Part shown: positions 43,553 to 46,225 of the stretch, piece after piece
Layout of the letters: every line of letters starts with the position of its first letter
How positions within the stretch are numbered: position 1 is the first letter of the stretch
Origin: Oceanospirillaceae bacterium
Lineage (GTDB): Bacteria > Pseudomonadota > Gammaproteobacteria > Pseudomonadales > Balneatricaceae
Assembly: GCA_013373085.1 (NCBI GenBank)
Contig: JABXIM010000013.1
Coordinates: forward strand, 62,001-126,000
Direction: 5' to 3'
DNA length: 64,000 bases
Notes under the pieces: generated by a model
What the model was told of the DNA's origin: nothing
Databases searched by the model: none
What the model saw: only the letters and a program-made list of their open reading frames with translations
Program-made: the position numbers and the translations under genes

Positions 43553-44338
43553 ATGGAAGTCGCATACAGTTTCGCGGGTTTGGTCGTGGGCTTCATCGTC
43601 GGCCTGACCGGTATCGGGGGCGGGGCCCTGATGACGCCGATCCTGATCGTCGTTTTTGGTATCGCGCCGGTCGTGGCCGTGAGCACCGACCTGCTGTACG
43701 CCGCGATTACCAAGTTCGGCGGTATGTGGTCCTATGCCCGCAAGAAAATGGTGCACTGGAAGGTCGTGGGTCTGCTGCTCTGCGGCAGCATACCGGGAAG
43801 CCTGCTGACGCTGAATTTCCTGAAGGGACTCGATGCCCTCGAAAGCATCGAGTCGCTGATGAACATGACGCTGGGCGTATCGCTGGTGCTGACCTCCGTC
43901 GCGGTGTTCCTGCGCAACCGCATCCGCGAGCGGGCGCTGGCGTTCGAGGATCATCCACTGGCCGACACAGCACGCAAGATCCGCCCCTATGCCACCGTGC
44001 TGATGGGGCTGGTGCTGGGAGCGCTGGTCACGCTGTCTTCGGTCGGCGCCGGTGCCCTCGGCACCGCGATGCTGATCCTGCTGTACCCGCGCATGACCAT
44101 GCCGGGCATTGTCGGCAGTGACCTGGTGCACGCGGTGGTGCTGACCAGCATCGCCGGCGCCGGGCACTACACGATGGGTAATGTCGACCTGTCGTTGCTG
44201 GTATACTTGCTGCTCGGTTCGCTGCCGGGGGTCTTCCTGGGCAGTCACGTCGGTGTGCGGCTCTCGCCCAAGGTGATGCAGCCGATCATGGGTTCCATTC
44301 TGTTTGCCATTGGCCTGCGCTTCGTGCTGGCGGGCTGA
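43553..44338 (+). CDS. TauE/SafE-family sulfite or organosulfonate permease
   Basis: Inner-membrane protein of 261 residues with about eight helices in two repeats, marked by VGLTGIGGGALMTPILI and LVTLSSVGAGALGTAMLIL, the signature of the TauE/SafE (DUF81) family. It sits between cysDN and cysI, so transport of sulfite or a related sulfur anion is likely. Direction and substrate are not decidable from sequence. A row of hairpins separates it from cysI. Confidence 0.87.
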   Translation: MEVAYSFAGLVVGFIVGLTGIGGGALMTPILIVVFGIAPVVAVSTDLLYAAITKFGGMWSYARKKMVHWKVVGLLLCGSIPGSLLTLNFLKGLDALESIESLMNMTLGVSLVLTSVAVFLRNRIRERALAFEDHPLADTARKIRPYATVLMGLVLGALVTLSSVGAGALGTAMLILLYPRMTMPGIVGSDLVHAVVLTSIAGAGHYTMGNVDLSLLVYLLLGSLPGVFLGSHVGVRLSPKVMQPIMGSILFAIGLRFVLAG

Positions 44339-44356
44339 GCGGGAGTATTGACCCTT

Positions 44357-44544
44357 CAATTAAATGGGCGTCCCGGCCGATTTAATTGTAGCCCTTGAAA
44401 ATCGGGCGTGATTTTGCGAAATCCCTTGATTTTCAAGGGCTAGCATTGGCTTTCAGCCAATGGAGATGCATCCATGCATCACAATATCAACCCGGAACGG
44501 GTTGATATCCACAGAATTCGAGGTGAATGGCGGCACAGCCGCCA
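44357..44544 (+). repeat. Array of six perfect hairpins upstream of cysI
   Basis: Consecutive stems are: CAATTAAAT/ATTTAATTG (44357-44388), AGCCCTTGAAAATC and its complement (14 bp, 44390-44441), CATTGGCT/AGCCAATG (loop TTC, 44444-44462), GATGCAT/ATGCATC (loop CC, 44465-44480), ATATCAACCCG/CGGGTTGATAT (loop GAA, 44484-44508) and TGGCGGC/GCCGCCA (loop ACA, 44528-44544). All arms are perfectly paired and unrelated in sequence. The last ends 16 bases before the cysI ATG. Confidence 0.9.
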
Positions 44545-44560
44545 CGCAAGGTGTTGGAGC

Positions 44561-46225
44561 ATGTATCAATATACTGAAGTAGACCAGAAGCTGGTCGACG
44601 ATCGCGTCGCCCAGTTTCGCGATCAGACCCGCCGCTTCCTGGCGGGTGAGCTGCCGGACGAGGAGTACCTGCCGCTGCGGCTGATGAATGGCCTTTACAT
44701 CCAGCGCCACGCGCCGATGCTGCGTGTCGCCATTCCGTACGGCCTGCTGTCGTCCGAGCAGATGCGCAAGCTGGCGCACATCGCCCGTACCTACGACAAG
44801 GGTTACGGTCACTTCACCACCCGGACCAACATCCAGTTCAACTGGCCGAAGCTGGAAGAAGTACCCGATATCCTGGCGGAGCTGGCCGAGGTGCAGATGC
44901 ATGCCATCCAGACGTCGGGCAACTGTATCCGCAACACCACGACCGACCATTTCGCCGGCATCAATGCCAGCGAGATCGAAGATCCGCGTCCGTACTGCGA
45001 GCTGATCCGCCAGTGGTCGACCTTCCACCCGGAATTCGCCTACCTGCCGCGCAAGTTCAAGATGGCGGTAACCGGCGGTCCCGAGGACCGCGCTGCGTCC
45101 CAGGTACACGATATCGGTCTGCACCTGGTCAAGAACGATGCCGGCGAAGTCGGCTTCGAAGTGCTGGTCGGCGGTGGCCTGGGTCGTACCCCGATCATCG
45201 GCAAGACGATCCGCGACTTCCTGCCGAAGGAGGACCTGCTGTCCTACCTCGAGGCGATTCTGCGCGTCTATAACCTCAAGGGACGTCGTGACAACAAGTA
45301 CAAGGCCCGCATCAAGATTTTGGTGCAGGCGCTGGGGGCCGAAGAGTTCGCACGCCAGGTCGAGGCCGAGTGGGAGCAGATCAAGGTCGAGCAGCCGGAA
45401 CTCAAGTTGACCGCCGAAGAGATCGCGCGCGTTCAGGGCTTCTTCAAGCCGTTCGACTACGATGCCTCCGCGGCGAACGACACCAGTCTGGCCGACAAGC
45501 TGGCCAGCGACAGCGACTTCCGCGTCTGGTACGAAAAGAACACCGTCGAGCACAAGGTCGCCGGTTACCGTGGCGTGGTCGTCTCGCTGAAGCCGATGCT
45601 GGCGCCGGCCGGTGATGCCACCGACCTGCAGATGGACGTGGTTGCAGACCTGGCCGACAAGTACAGCTGGGGCGAGATCCGCGTGACCCATACCCAGAAC
45701 CTGGTACTGGCCGACGTCAAGAACACGGACCTCCATGCGGTCTGGCAGGTGCTGGCCGAACACAACATGGCGCGCCCGAATATCAACATGCTCAGCGACA
45801 TGATCGTCTGCCCGGGCGGCGACTTCTGCGGCCTGGCCAACGCCAAGACGCTGGGTATCGCCGACCAGATCAACCAGAAGTTCGACAACCTGGACTACCA
45901 GTTCGATCTTGGCGAGATCCGCCTGAACATGTCCGGCTGCATCAACGCCTGCGGCCATCACCACATCGGTCATATCGGTATTCTCGGCGTCGACAAAAAC
46001 GGCGAGGACTGGTACCAGATCACCATCGGCGGCTCCGACAAGGAAGACGCGTCGCTGGGCAAGGTGCTGGGCAAGTCGGTCGCCGCCGACGAGGTTGCCG
46101 ACACTCTGGAGAAAATCCTGCTGACCTACGTGGAAAACCGCGTGGAAAACGAATCCTTTATCGAAACCGTGCGCCGCATCGGTGTCGCCCCGTTCAAGGA
46201 GAAGGTTTATGCCGCTGCTCATTAA
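44561..46225 (+). CDS. cysI: Sulfite reductase haemoprotein (Pseudomonas-type CysI)
   Basis: Siroheme/4Fe-4S enzyme of 554 residues reducing sulfite to sulfide. Two ferredoxin-like halves start with LRLMNGLYIQRHAPMLRVAI. The first half shows YGHFTTRTNIQFNW and SGNCIRNTTTDHFAG. The cluster/siroheme ligands are in CPGGDFCGLANAKTLG and NMSGCINACGHHHIGHIGIL. It resembles the Pseudomonas/plant-like ferredoxin-type enzyme more than the E. coli CysI that pairs with CysJ. ATG at 44561 begins the conserved MYQYTEVD sequence. The DUF934 gene overlaps its end by 17 bases. Confidence 0.94.
   Translation: MYQYTEVDQKLVDDRVAQFRDQTRRFLAGELPDEEYLPLRLMNGLYIQRHAPMLRVAIPYGLLSSEQMRKLAHIARTYDKGYGHFTTRTNIQFNWPKLEEVPDILAELAEVQMHAIQTSGNCIRNTTTDHFAGINASEIEDPRPYCELIRQWSTFHPEFAYLPRKFKMAVTGGPEDRAASQVHDIGLHLVKNDAGEVGFEVLVGGGLGRTPIIGKTIRDFLPKEDLLSYLEAILRVYNLKGRRDNKYKARIKILVQALGAEEFARQVEAEWEQIKVEQPELKLTAEEIARVQGFFKPFDYDASAANDTSLADKLASDSDFRVWYEKNTVEHKVAGYRGVVVSLKPMLAPAGDATDLQMDVVADLADKYSWGEIRVTHTQNLVLADVKNTDLHAVWQVLAEHNMARPNINMLSDMIVCPGGDFCGLANAKTLGIADQINQKFDNLDYQFDLGEIRLNMSGCINACGHHHIGHIGILGVDKNGEDWYQITIGGSDKEDASLGKVLGKSVAADEVADTLEKILLTYVENRVENESFIETVRRIGVAPFKEKVYAAAH

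Follow-up and report, generated by a model that had tools for sequence, protein, structure and literature searches.

Hairpins upstream of cysI in an Oceanospirillaceae bacterium: a probable old copy of an IS630-type MITE-like element beside a separate leader hairpin

Six perfect hairpins of unrelated sequence lie end to end in front of a sulfite reductase gene of an Oceanospirillaceae bacterium, and the question raised by this locus is whether such a row belongs to cysI or is something that has landed there. The window, by which we mean the whole stretch of 64,000 nucleotides that was analysed, had earlier been interpreted from its letters alone. That sequence-only reading described inverted repeats with arms of 9, 14, 8, 7, 11 and 7 bp ending 16 bases before the start of the gene, and held that they are not terminators. 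All six are found at the positions given and with these arm lengths, 16 bases separate 44544 from the cysI ATG at 44561, and the ten bases 3′ of each of the six stems are without a T-run, so that the GC-rich hairpin followed by a T-run that marks an intrinsic terminator is seen at none of them. Codon-scored gene calling places the upstream gene and cysI on the same strand and calls no gene between 44338 and 44561. The features of the locus are as follows.

43553–44338, plus strand: upstream gene, 261 aa, presumably a TauE/SafE-type permease; its stop lies 7 nt before the element
44346–44507, plus strand: probable copy of an IS630-type MITE-like element, 162 bp, TATTGACCC...GGGTTGATA
44346–44356, plus strand: left terminal inverted repeat TATTGACCCTT, matching TATTAACCYGG at 8 of 11 positions
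44357–44388, plus strand: hairpin 1, perfect stem of 9 bp, arms 44357–44365 and 44380–44388
44391–44441, plus strand: hairpin 2, perfect stem of 14 bp, arms 44391–44404 and 44428–44441; its 23-nt loop holds a nested hairpin
44444–44462, plus strand: hairpin 3, stem of 8 bp, CATTGGCT..AGCCAATG, a strongly conserved part
44465–44480, plus strand: hairpin 4, stem of 7 bp with loop CC, GATGCATCCATGCATC
44484–44508, plus strand: hairpin 5, 11 bp, the terminal palindrome ATATCAACCCG GAA CGGGTTGATAT; the right terminal inverted repeat within it matches the consensus at 9 of 11 positions
44528–44544, plus strand: hairpin 6, 7 bp, outside the element, the leader hairpin of cysI
44561–46225, plus strand: cysI-type sulfite reductase gene, a name taken from the sequence-only reading

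Folded as RNA, 44340–44570 reaches −102.2 kcal/mol against −67.0 ± 5.0 for 200 dinucleotide shuffles (z = −7.0), and none of the 200 folds equally well. The leader therefore lies far beyond chance in the comparison with shuffled controls that had been proposed as a check. We also counted perfect stems that do not overlap, are 7 bp or longer and have loops of 2–14, a rule under which hairpin 2 enters through its inner 7-bp stem. The leader holds six such stems in 188 nt, and 2000 dinucleotide shuffles gave at most three, reached in 2 of the 2000; the equal stem numbers in shuffled sequence that would have spoken against the original observation were not seen. When the 64 kb were scanned in 1358 overlapping segments of 188 nt, six segments had three or more stems, every one of them over the cysI leader. 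That the row arose as chance or low-complexity palindromes can be dismissed outright: we found nothing in favor of this explanation, and it is contradicted by the shuffles (0 of 2000 above three stems; z −7.0) and by covariation over 62 distinct rows, described below. Rfam has no family at the gathering threshold in the window, and over seven loci searched at E ≤ 5 the only match above threshold was a neighbouring tRNA.

The row turned out to be two things, stems 1–5 being a dispersed element and hairpin 6 being separate from it. Searching the whole genome for further rows, as the sequence-only reading had suggested, revealed many other loci both in the bacterium's own genome and in its genus. 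With the leader as query, the own genome gave seven matches, including the leader itself and one to its own reverse strand. The best other places, on contigs C181, C36 and C192, are 80–85% identical over 86–137 nt, the remaining matches are two shorter pieces, and all matches apart from the leader itself fall within query positions 7–143; most of the row is therefore a dispersed repeat. A DNA search of 38 genomes, the own one included, found the element in all seven of the genus, which is Marinobacterium in the broad sense, and in none of the 31 outside it. A covariance model built from 11 copies (R1, cut-off E ≤ 0.01, up to 150 candidates per genome scored) gave at least 35 matches in the own genome and at least 251 in the seven genomes of the genus, weaker matches being included in the 251 without one-by-one inspection. 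The window copy scores 154 bits with R1 at 44346–44483 and 147.7 bits at 44346–44507 with R2, a second model made from 16 sequences and including the terminal hairpin. In the draft of the sister genome G006, contigs C8 (L169) and C44 carry element sequence from contig position 2. They begin inside the element, and so assemblies break there and copy numbers from drafts may be underestimates.

In its clean form the element, about 160 bp long and without a gene, consists of TATTAACCYGG, hairpin 1, the long hairpin 2 with its inner hairpin, hairpin 3 (CATTGG..CCAATG), hairpin 4 with loop CC, and the terminal palindrome TATTAACCCG CCGGGTTAATA. Clean copies in sister genomes measure 158 bp in the common subfamily and 181–187 bp in the others, and most forms in the own genome 157–207 bp. 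The own genome also holds modular variants: a lone 21-bp terminal palindrome, a 53-bp form with hairpin 1 between the two ends, a 96-bp form without hairpins 2 and 3, and forms of 206–207 bp with extra hairpins. The minimal palindromic forms made of the two element ends, L194 (21 bp) and L200 (53 bp), may either be what internal deletion leaves in the end or represent the smallest units able to move. By eye, the long forms at L034, L043, L059, L062 and L193 have an insertion of about 45–60 nt in hairpin 2, which brings in an A/T-rich stem (GCAAAAAA..TTTTTTG) as well as hairpins whose loops are GGATG and AGGA. Also by eye, L195 and L199 (own contigs C18 and C102) show single ends (TATTAACCTGGC) followed by other DNA with no recognisable hairpin row, and may represent elements cut short or IS ends that have decayed.

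If the row served cysI, it should not be absent from cysI in close relatives, and decay of the row in relatives with intact cysI had been named beforehand as the outcome that would count against it. This outcome is what we observed. The cysI leaders of the sister genomes G001, G002, G003, G004 and G006 contain no element, and G005, the closest by cysI (95%), has lost hairpins 1–4 and kept only ATTGACCCGCCGGTGGCGGGTCAATATCC, with the same right boundary; by eye, two pairs of hairpin 5 differ between G005 and the window, and both are compensated. With five of six sister species lacking the element at cysI, the sixth keeping one hairpin, and rows present elsewhere, the suggestion that the row is a cysI device, and with it a regulatory role of hairpins 1–5, is not supported. 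We therefore regard it as very unlikely that the whole row is a cis-regulatory leader RNA insulating, stabilising or regulating the cysI mRNA. Such a leader RNA would agree with the strong fold, with the end of the row 16 nt before the ATG, with flanking genes on one strand and with a hairpin 6 that is conserved at cysI, but hairpins 1–5 are absent (five) or reduced to one (one) in the six sister species, the element sits at many other loci, and no Rfam family is found in the window. The base pairs themselves point the same way, as the main helices show no preference for G.U on the cysI strand (63 against 74 cells; 83 against 139 events, see below), although the inner helix of hairpin 2 reverses this in R1 (44 G.U against 11 A.C).

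Hairpin 6 is, on the evidence of aligned leaders, a feature of the cysI leader and distinct from the element. Fourteen leaders from Marinobacterium, Pontibacterium and Neptuniibacter share the order GAGGTG or GAGATG, hairpin, AAGG (TAGG in one), and the stem ends 13–17 nt before the cysI start. In these 14 leaders, which were chosen for the motif, the 10-pair stem has 82.1% of its cells paired, as opposed to 65.3% in shuffles, and 28 double-change cells compare with 9.0 (0 of 500 shuffles); further pair types do not exceed the shuffles in the same 14 leaders (16 against 15.0, 189 of 500). The rest of the 53 folded leaders include same-species duplicates, a few similar hairpins left unaligned, and leaders without the motif. 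In the window the region 44515–44548 has the hairpin between GAGGTG and CAAGG, and its arms are unrelated between genera yet paired. Counterparts are seen near positions 1455–1490 of L001, L063–L065, L070–L073, L075, L077, L079, L080, L084 and L096. A role at cysI, for example in translational control, is possible. The alternative that the row is a mobile repeat, also raised in the sequence-only reading, is thus borne out for hairpins 1–5 and not for the sixth, which lies outside the element.

What kind of mobile repeat this is can be approached through its target sites. TA targets are a hallmark of the IS630/Tc1-mariner group. In an empty-site test, the flanks of copies were joined and searched for in sister genomes. 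At L046 (against G006) and at L041 (against G003, G004 and G002) the empty allele has a single TA and the filled allele TA..TA, and the copy at L050 sits inside another repeat, six uninterrupted copies of which carry a single TA. A duplicated TA target is accordingly observed at L046, L041 and L050, and not at the window copy, where comparison with the empty leaders gives a junction that is not readable as a clean TA duplication; judging from other copies, we take its first TA to be the target TA. Other junctions are less clean, the relative having TG at L058 and CA at L179, and further alignments are weak. Five sites in the own genome gave no clean junction; one alignment, of L192 with L232, matched another copy of the element. 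In the 41 of 92 copies with both ends clean, the TA is preceded by C in 30, by T in 10 and by A in 1. Four identical 158-bp copies occupy four places in G004, and three identical 181-bp copies, together with a fourth that has one difference, are present in G003, which indicates recent spread in both genomes. The repeat interrupted at L050, some 150 bp long and likewise dispersed between genes, has inverted arms of its own, GAGCTCGCCAATTCG..CGAATTGGCGGGCTC (L050, about 1400–1480 and 1661–1720). It occurs at more than 30 places in the genomes searched with joined flanks, and one copy is interrupted by the hairpin element. Allowing up to two mismatches, the window contains no match to a 14-base piece of this second repeat.

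The ends of the element are found again on complete insertion sequences. IS elements with both ends are present in G001, G003 and G004; the eight that were measured are 1102–1111 bp long and start with TATTAACCCGGCGG. Between the IS at L284 and the subfamily B element, 22 of 23 left bases and 16 of 18 right bases are identical, and in subfamily B copies the left end of the IS is the left arm of hairpin 1. Two transposases translated from such elements, each of 344 aa, match the DDE_3 domain (E 5e-39 and 2e-35) and the NCBIfam model NF033545 (IS630) with 224 and 237 bits. Matches to DDE_3 occur in five of the seven genomes of the genus and in neither the own genome, a draft of 249 contigs, nor G006, and when the transposase was searched against the own genome the best hit had 24% identity. 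The copies in the own genome may therefore have been left without a mover, or the draft may lack the transposase.

Because the element shares its ends with an IS of the IS630 family and shows TA..TA against a single TA, we favor a non-autonomous element of the MITE type. It is short, has no transposase gene, has ends in common with a complete IS and occurs in dispersed copies. A cognate transposase, as is usual for an active family and not required of an old copy, was not found in the genome of the window copy. We consider it very probable that hairpins 1–5 are an old copy of a non-autonomous MITE of the IS630/Tc1-mariner type, presumably mobilized in trans by an IS630 transposase and with pairing probably maintained at the level of DNA. 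Against this reading stand the absence of the transposase from the own genome and G006, the rarity of close transposases among element-bearing genomes of the order (see below) and the TG and CA junctions at L058 and L179, and hairpins kept inside the element across 15 genera exceed what a minimal MITE would require. We suggest that an IS630 transposase would act in trans on the ends and that the element would insert at YTA, in many cases shortly after a gene's stop codon or within a TAA or TAG, where its own TATTAA would restore a stop. The copy before cysI would have arrived in this way behind the upstream gene, and an effect on the cysI messenger, if any, would be a by-product of insertion. 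Since its ends have diverged from TATTAACCYGG on both sides, this copy is probably no longer mobile. The internal hairpins would be a conserved part of the element, with pairing held while arm sequences change, most simply at the DNA level through template-switch correction and/or a need for folded or cruciform DNA.

The places where copies are found can be compared with this scheme. After 40 of the 92 genus copies had been set aside (13 with short flanks, 27 with no called neighbour), 52 had genes called on both sides, and these genes are tandem in 37, convergent in 7 and divergent in 8; the tandem copies lie at a median of 14 nt from the upstream stop. In other genera 10 of 29 copies could be placed, all between tandem genes. 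Among 120 clean ends, eight coding frames enter the element, and TATTAA provides an in-frame stop for seven of the eight; A or G comes after the far TA in all six such cases in which that TA is intact, against a background of 23 of 41. Both results are as expected for insertion in the TA of TAA or TAG. The empty alleles of L041 read TAA in G003 and G002 and TAG in G004. At L041, L190, L391, L395, L407, L434 and L032, TATTAA restores the stop one codon later. An apparent orientation bias of 40 opposite to 15 same was rejected, as the ORFs called by length had mis-stranded the window's own genes; with the codon-scored caller, which recovers these genes, 22 genus copies between tandem genes run opposite to them and 15 in the same direction, and in other genera the counts are 7 and 3, neither being a significant bias.

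The element extends well beyond the genus. R2, with seven candidates per genome scored, detects it in at least 24 of 390 genomes of the order (the own one included), in at least 15 of 143 genera and in at least 10 families. The best matches of most of these genomes keep the hairpin order while their arms differ, and weaker ones lack parts. One copy (E 2e-6) lies on plasmid pSU1 of Agarilytica rhodophyticola (Cellvibrionaceae), from sea water. This was the one record in a plasmid search with the window element; two other subfamilies gave none, a phage search with the window element alone gave none, and viral contigs searched with one exact hairpin 3 pattern gave none. The statement in the sequence-only reading that rows of this kind occur here and there in other marine gammaproteobacteria is therefore borne out in part: it agrees with our survey as far as the other genomes of the order are concerned, and its word marine applies as yet to one named record, the Agarilytica plasmid. 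A close transposase (E ≤ 1e-30) is present in 14 of the 390 genomes, five of which also carry the element (hypergeometric p 8e-4, assuming that both surveys drew the same 390 genomes), and 19 of the 24 genomes with the element have no close transposase at this threshold. TATTAACC ends were found in 6 of 28 transposase loci fetched, in four genomes; G338 and G039 belong to the 24 as well, and no element match was obtained in G273 and G296.

How do the arms stay paired while their sequences change? Over 62 distinct rows, in an alignment that was fitted to the structure and hence favors pairing, 91.4% of cells are paired against 75.8% in shuffles, both sides have changed in 39 of 42 pairs, and 390 double-change cells compare with 125.6 (0 of 500 shuffles). 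Hairpin 1 forms helix 1 of this alignment, with 92.2% of cells paired, and hairpin 2 with its nested hairpin forms helices 2–4. If the partners are slid out of register, pairing falls to 35–46%. Selection for an RNA of the plus strand would give more G.U than A.C cells. In the four main helices of R1, 63 G.U compare with 74 A.C on the plus strand (60 rows, two weak or reverse-strand rows having been dropped). The inner helix of hairpin 2 has 44 G.U against 11 A.C in R1, giving 107 against 85 for all helices, and the opposite in R2 (2 against 23 and 0 against 6), so this helix is not reliably aligned; all helices of R2 give 149 against 137 in the genus and 29 against 49 in other genera. Counted as events on trees with R2 (90 + 29 sequences), and excluding two outer pairs of hairpin 1 that come with R2 and contain many of its 90 G.U cells, there were 83 G.U, 139 A.C and 188 other single changes. 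As the main helices, on which this judgment is based, do not show the expected excess of G.U, there is no signature of a plus-strand RNA.

Direct changes from one Watson-Crick pair to another were 159 of the transition type and 142 of the transversion type, by simple parsimony on a FastTree tree, where two single steps on long branches can mimic one. Nearest-neighbour copies provided eight pairs with 4 double and 19 single changes, which is too few. At one locus, the copies L206 (own contig C136) and L222 (contig C3 of G006) differ by a compensated change in hairpin 4, GAAACAGGGATGTTTC against GAAGCAGGGATGCTTC, and pairing can therefore be kept in place after insertion. Template switching has been proposed as a maker and keeper of hairpins, according to an excerpt of PMC8794818. 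The upkeep of the arms fits with one arm being corrected from the other by template switching, and selection on folded DNA would fit as well.

The excess of A.C on the plus strand, 139 to 83 tree events (p 2e-4), is at the same time an excess of G.U on the minus strand. Alternatively, then, the element could be a structured RNA of the minus strand that has spread as a MITE and is kept for its RNA, for example as a CsrA/RsmA-type site. Many copies have GGA on the minus strand in the loops of hairpins 1 and 4 (for example CAGGGATG; hairpin 4 of the window reads CATGGATG), and we take GGA loops to be a motif of the CsrA/RsmA type. Of the 90 and 29 distinct copies, 69 and 15 have a TCC loop between exact 5-bp arms at hairpin 4, 54 and 16 have one at hairpin 1, and some unpaired positions are conserved across genera. 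Plus-strand GGA loops also exist, however, in 29 of 90 and 3 of 29 copies, cysI is co-directional with the plus strand in the window, and the asymmetry is small in R1 (63 against 74) and reversed when the inner helix is included (107 against 85). As there is no significant orientation bias (22 opposite to 15 same, 7 to 3) and strand-biased mutation could yield the same asymmetry, we treat the A.C excess as a lead only. In its full form this alternative holds that the element is more than what a parasite has left behind, that a cassette of five hairpins with conserved loops, carried by an IS630-type MITE, has been kept in at least 15 genera, that its minus strand folds as RNA, that the GGA loops could bind a CsrA/RsmA-type regulator and that the arms are maintained by template switching. 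We think it unlikely, for the RNA reading in general as for this full form. If it were true, each insertion behind a stop codon would bring a finished regulatory RNA structure into the space between two genes.

Returning to the IS630-type MITE that we favor, the puzzling rows of perfect hairpins gain an identity, a consensus, a model that detects them and a plausible mover. We point out that hundreds of copies of varied ages and with varied arms, in filled and empty sites, amount to a natural experiment on the upkeep of palindromes, in which RNA selection, DNA selection and template-switch correction predict different patterns of G.U against A.C and of transitions against transversions. The locus also carries a warning, namely that an eye-catching leader structure seen in a single genome can have come in by insertion, and that the leader hairpin conserved more widely is here the inconspicuous sixth.

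In the titles and abstract openings among the matches listed from open-licence literature the element appears undescribed, which is weak evidence of absence. The core sites R″ and R′ of integron attC sites have the form RYYYAAC..GTTRRRY. A 140-bp integron repeat has been reported from the Saccharophagus genome (excerpt of PMC2386152).

Several known families of small repeats invite comparison. A repeat of the REP/BIME kind, moved by a Y1 (RAYT) transposase, would explain a mosaic of palindromes that is mostly intergenic and has modular variants (the solo 21-bp hairpin 5 and the forms of 53, 96 and 207 bp), but hardly inverted-repeat ends with TA on both sides that are common with an IS630 IS, and we give this origin next to no weight. 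REP/BIME repeats are marked by a tetranucleotide head and by association with a RAYT transposase, which is of a class different from IS630, and to our knowledge these repeats have no TA-flanked inverted-repeat ends. What they share with the element, as far as the excerpted text of PMC2817692 goes, is an intergenic mosaic of short palindromes. The Correia/NEMIS repeats of Neisseria resemble it in TA ends, target duplication, two size classes that differ by an internal insertion, and a structured transcript; their ends are 24 bp, and promoters and an IHF site have been reported (excerpts of PMC2229807 and PMC10969869). BOX of Streptococcus pneumoniae is likewise modular and often supplies a stop codon to the upstream gene, and is built from boxA-B-C modules, whereas the element is a row of short hairpins that provides the stop from its terminal TATTAA (excerpt of PMC3049150). 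RUP of S. pneumoniae, which is 107 bp long with 9-bp ends (excerpt of PMC2229807), is like the element a small, non-coding and intergenic repeat with IS630-like ends and a TA target, tightly folded and inserted in other mobile elements (excerpts of PMC2229807 and PMC3049150), the likeness being one of features and not of sequence comparison. Unlike RUP, the element has five separate covarying hairpins and is found in at least 15 genera. The nearest known system is thus RUP with IS630-Spn1, while Correia/NEMIS and BOX share single traits with the element.
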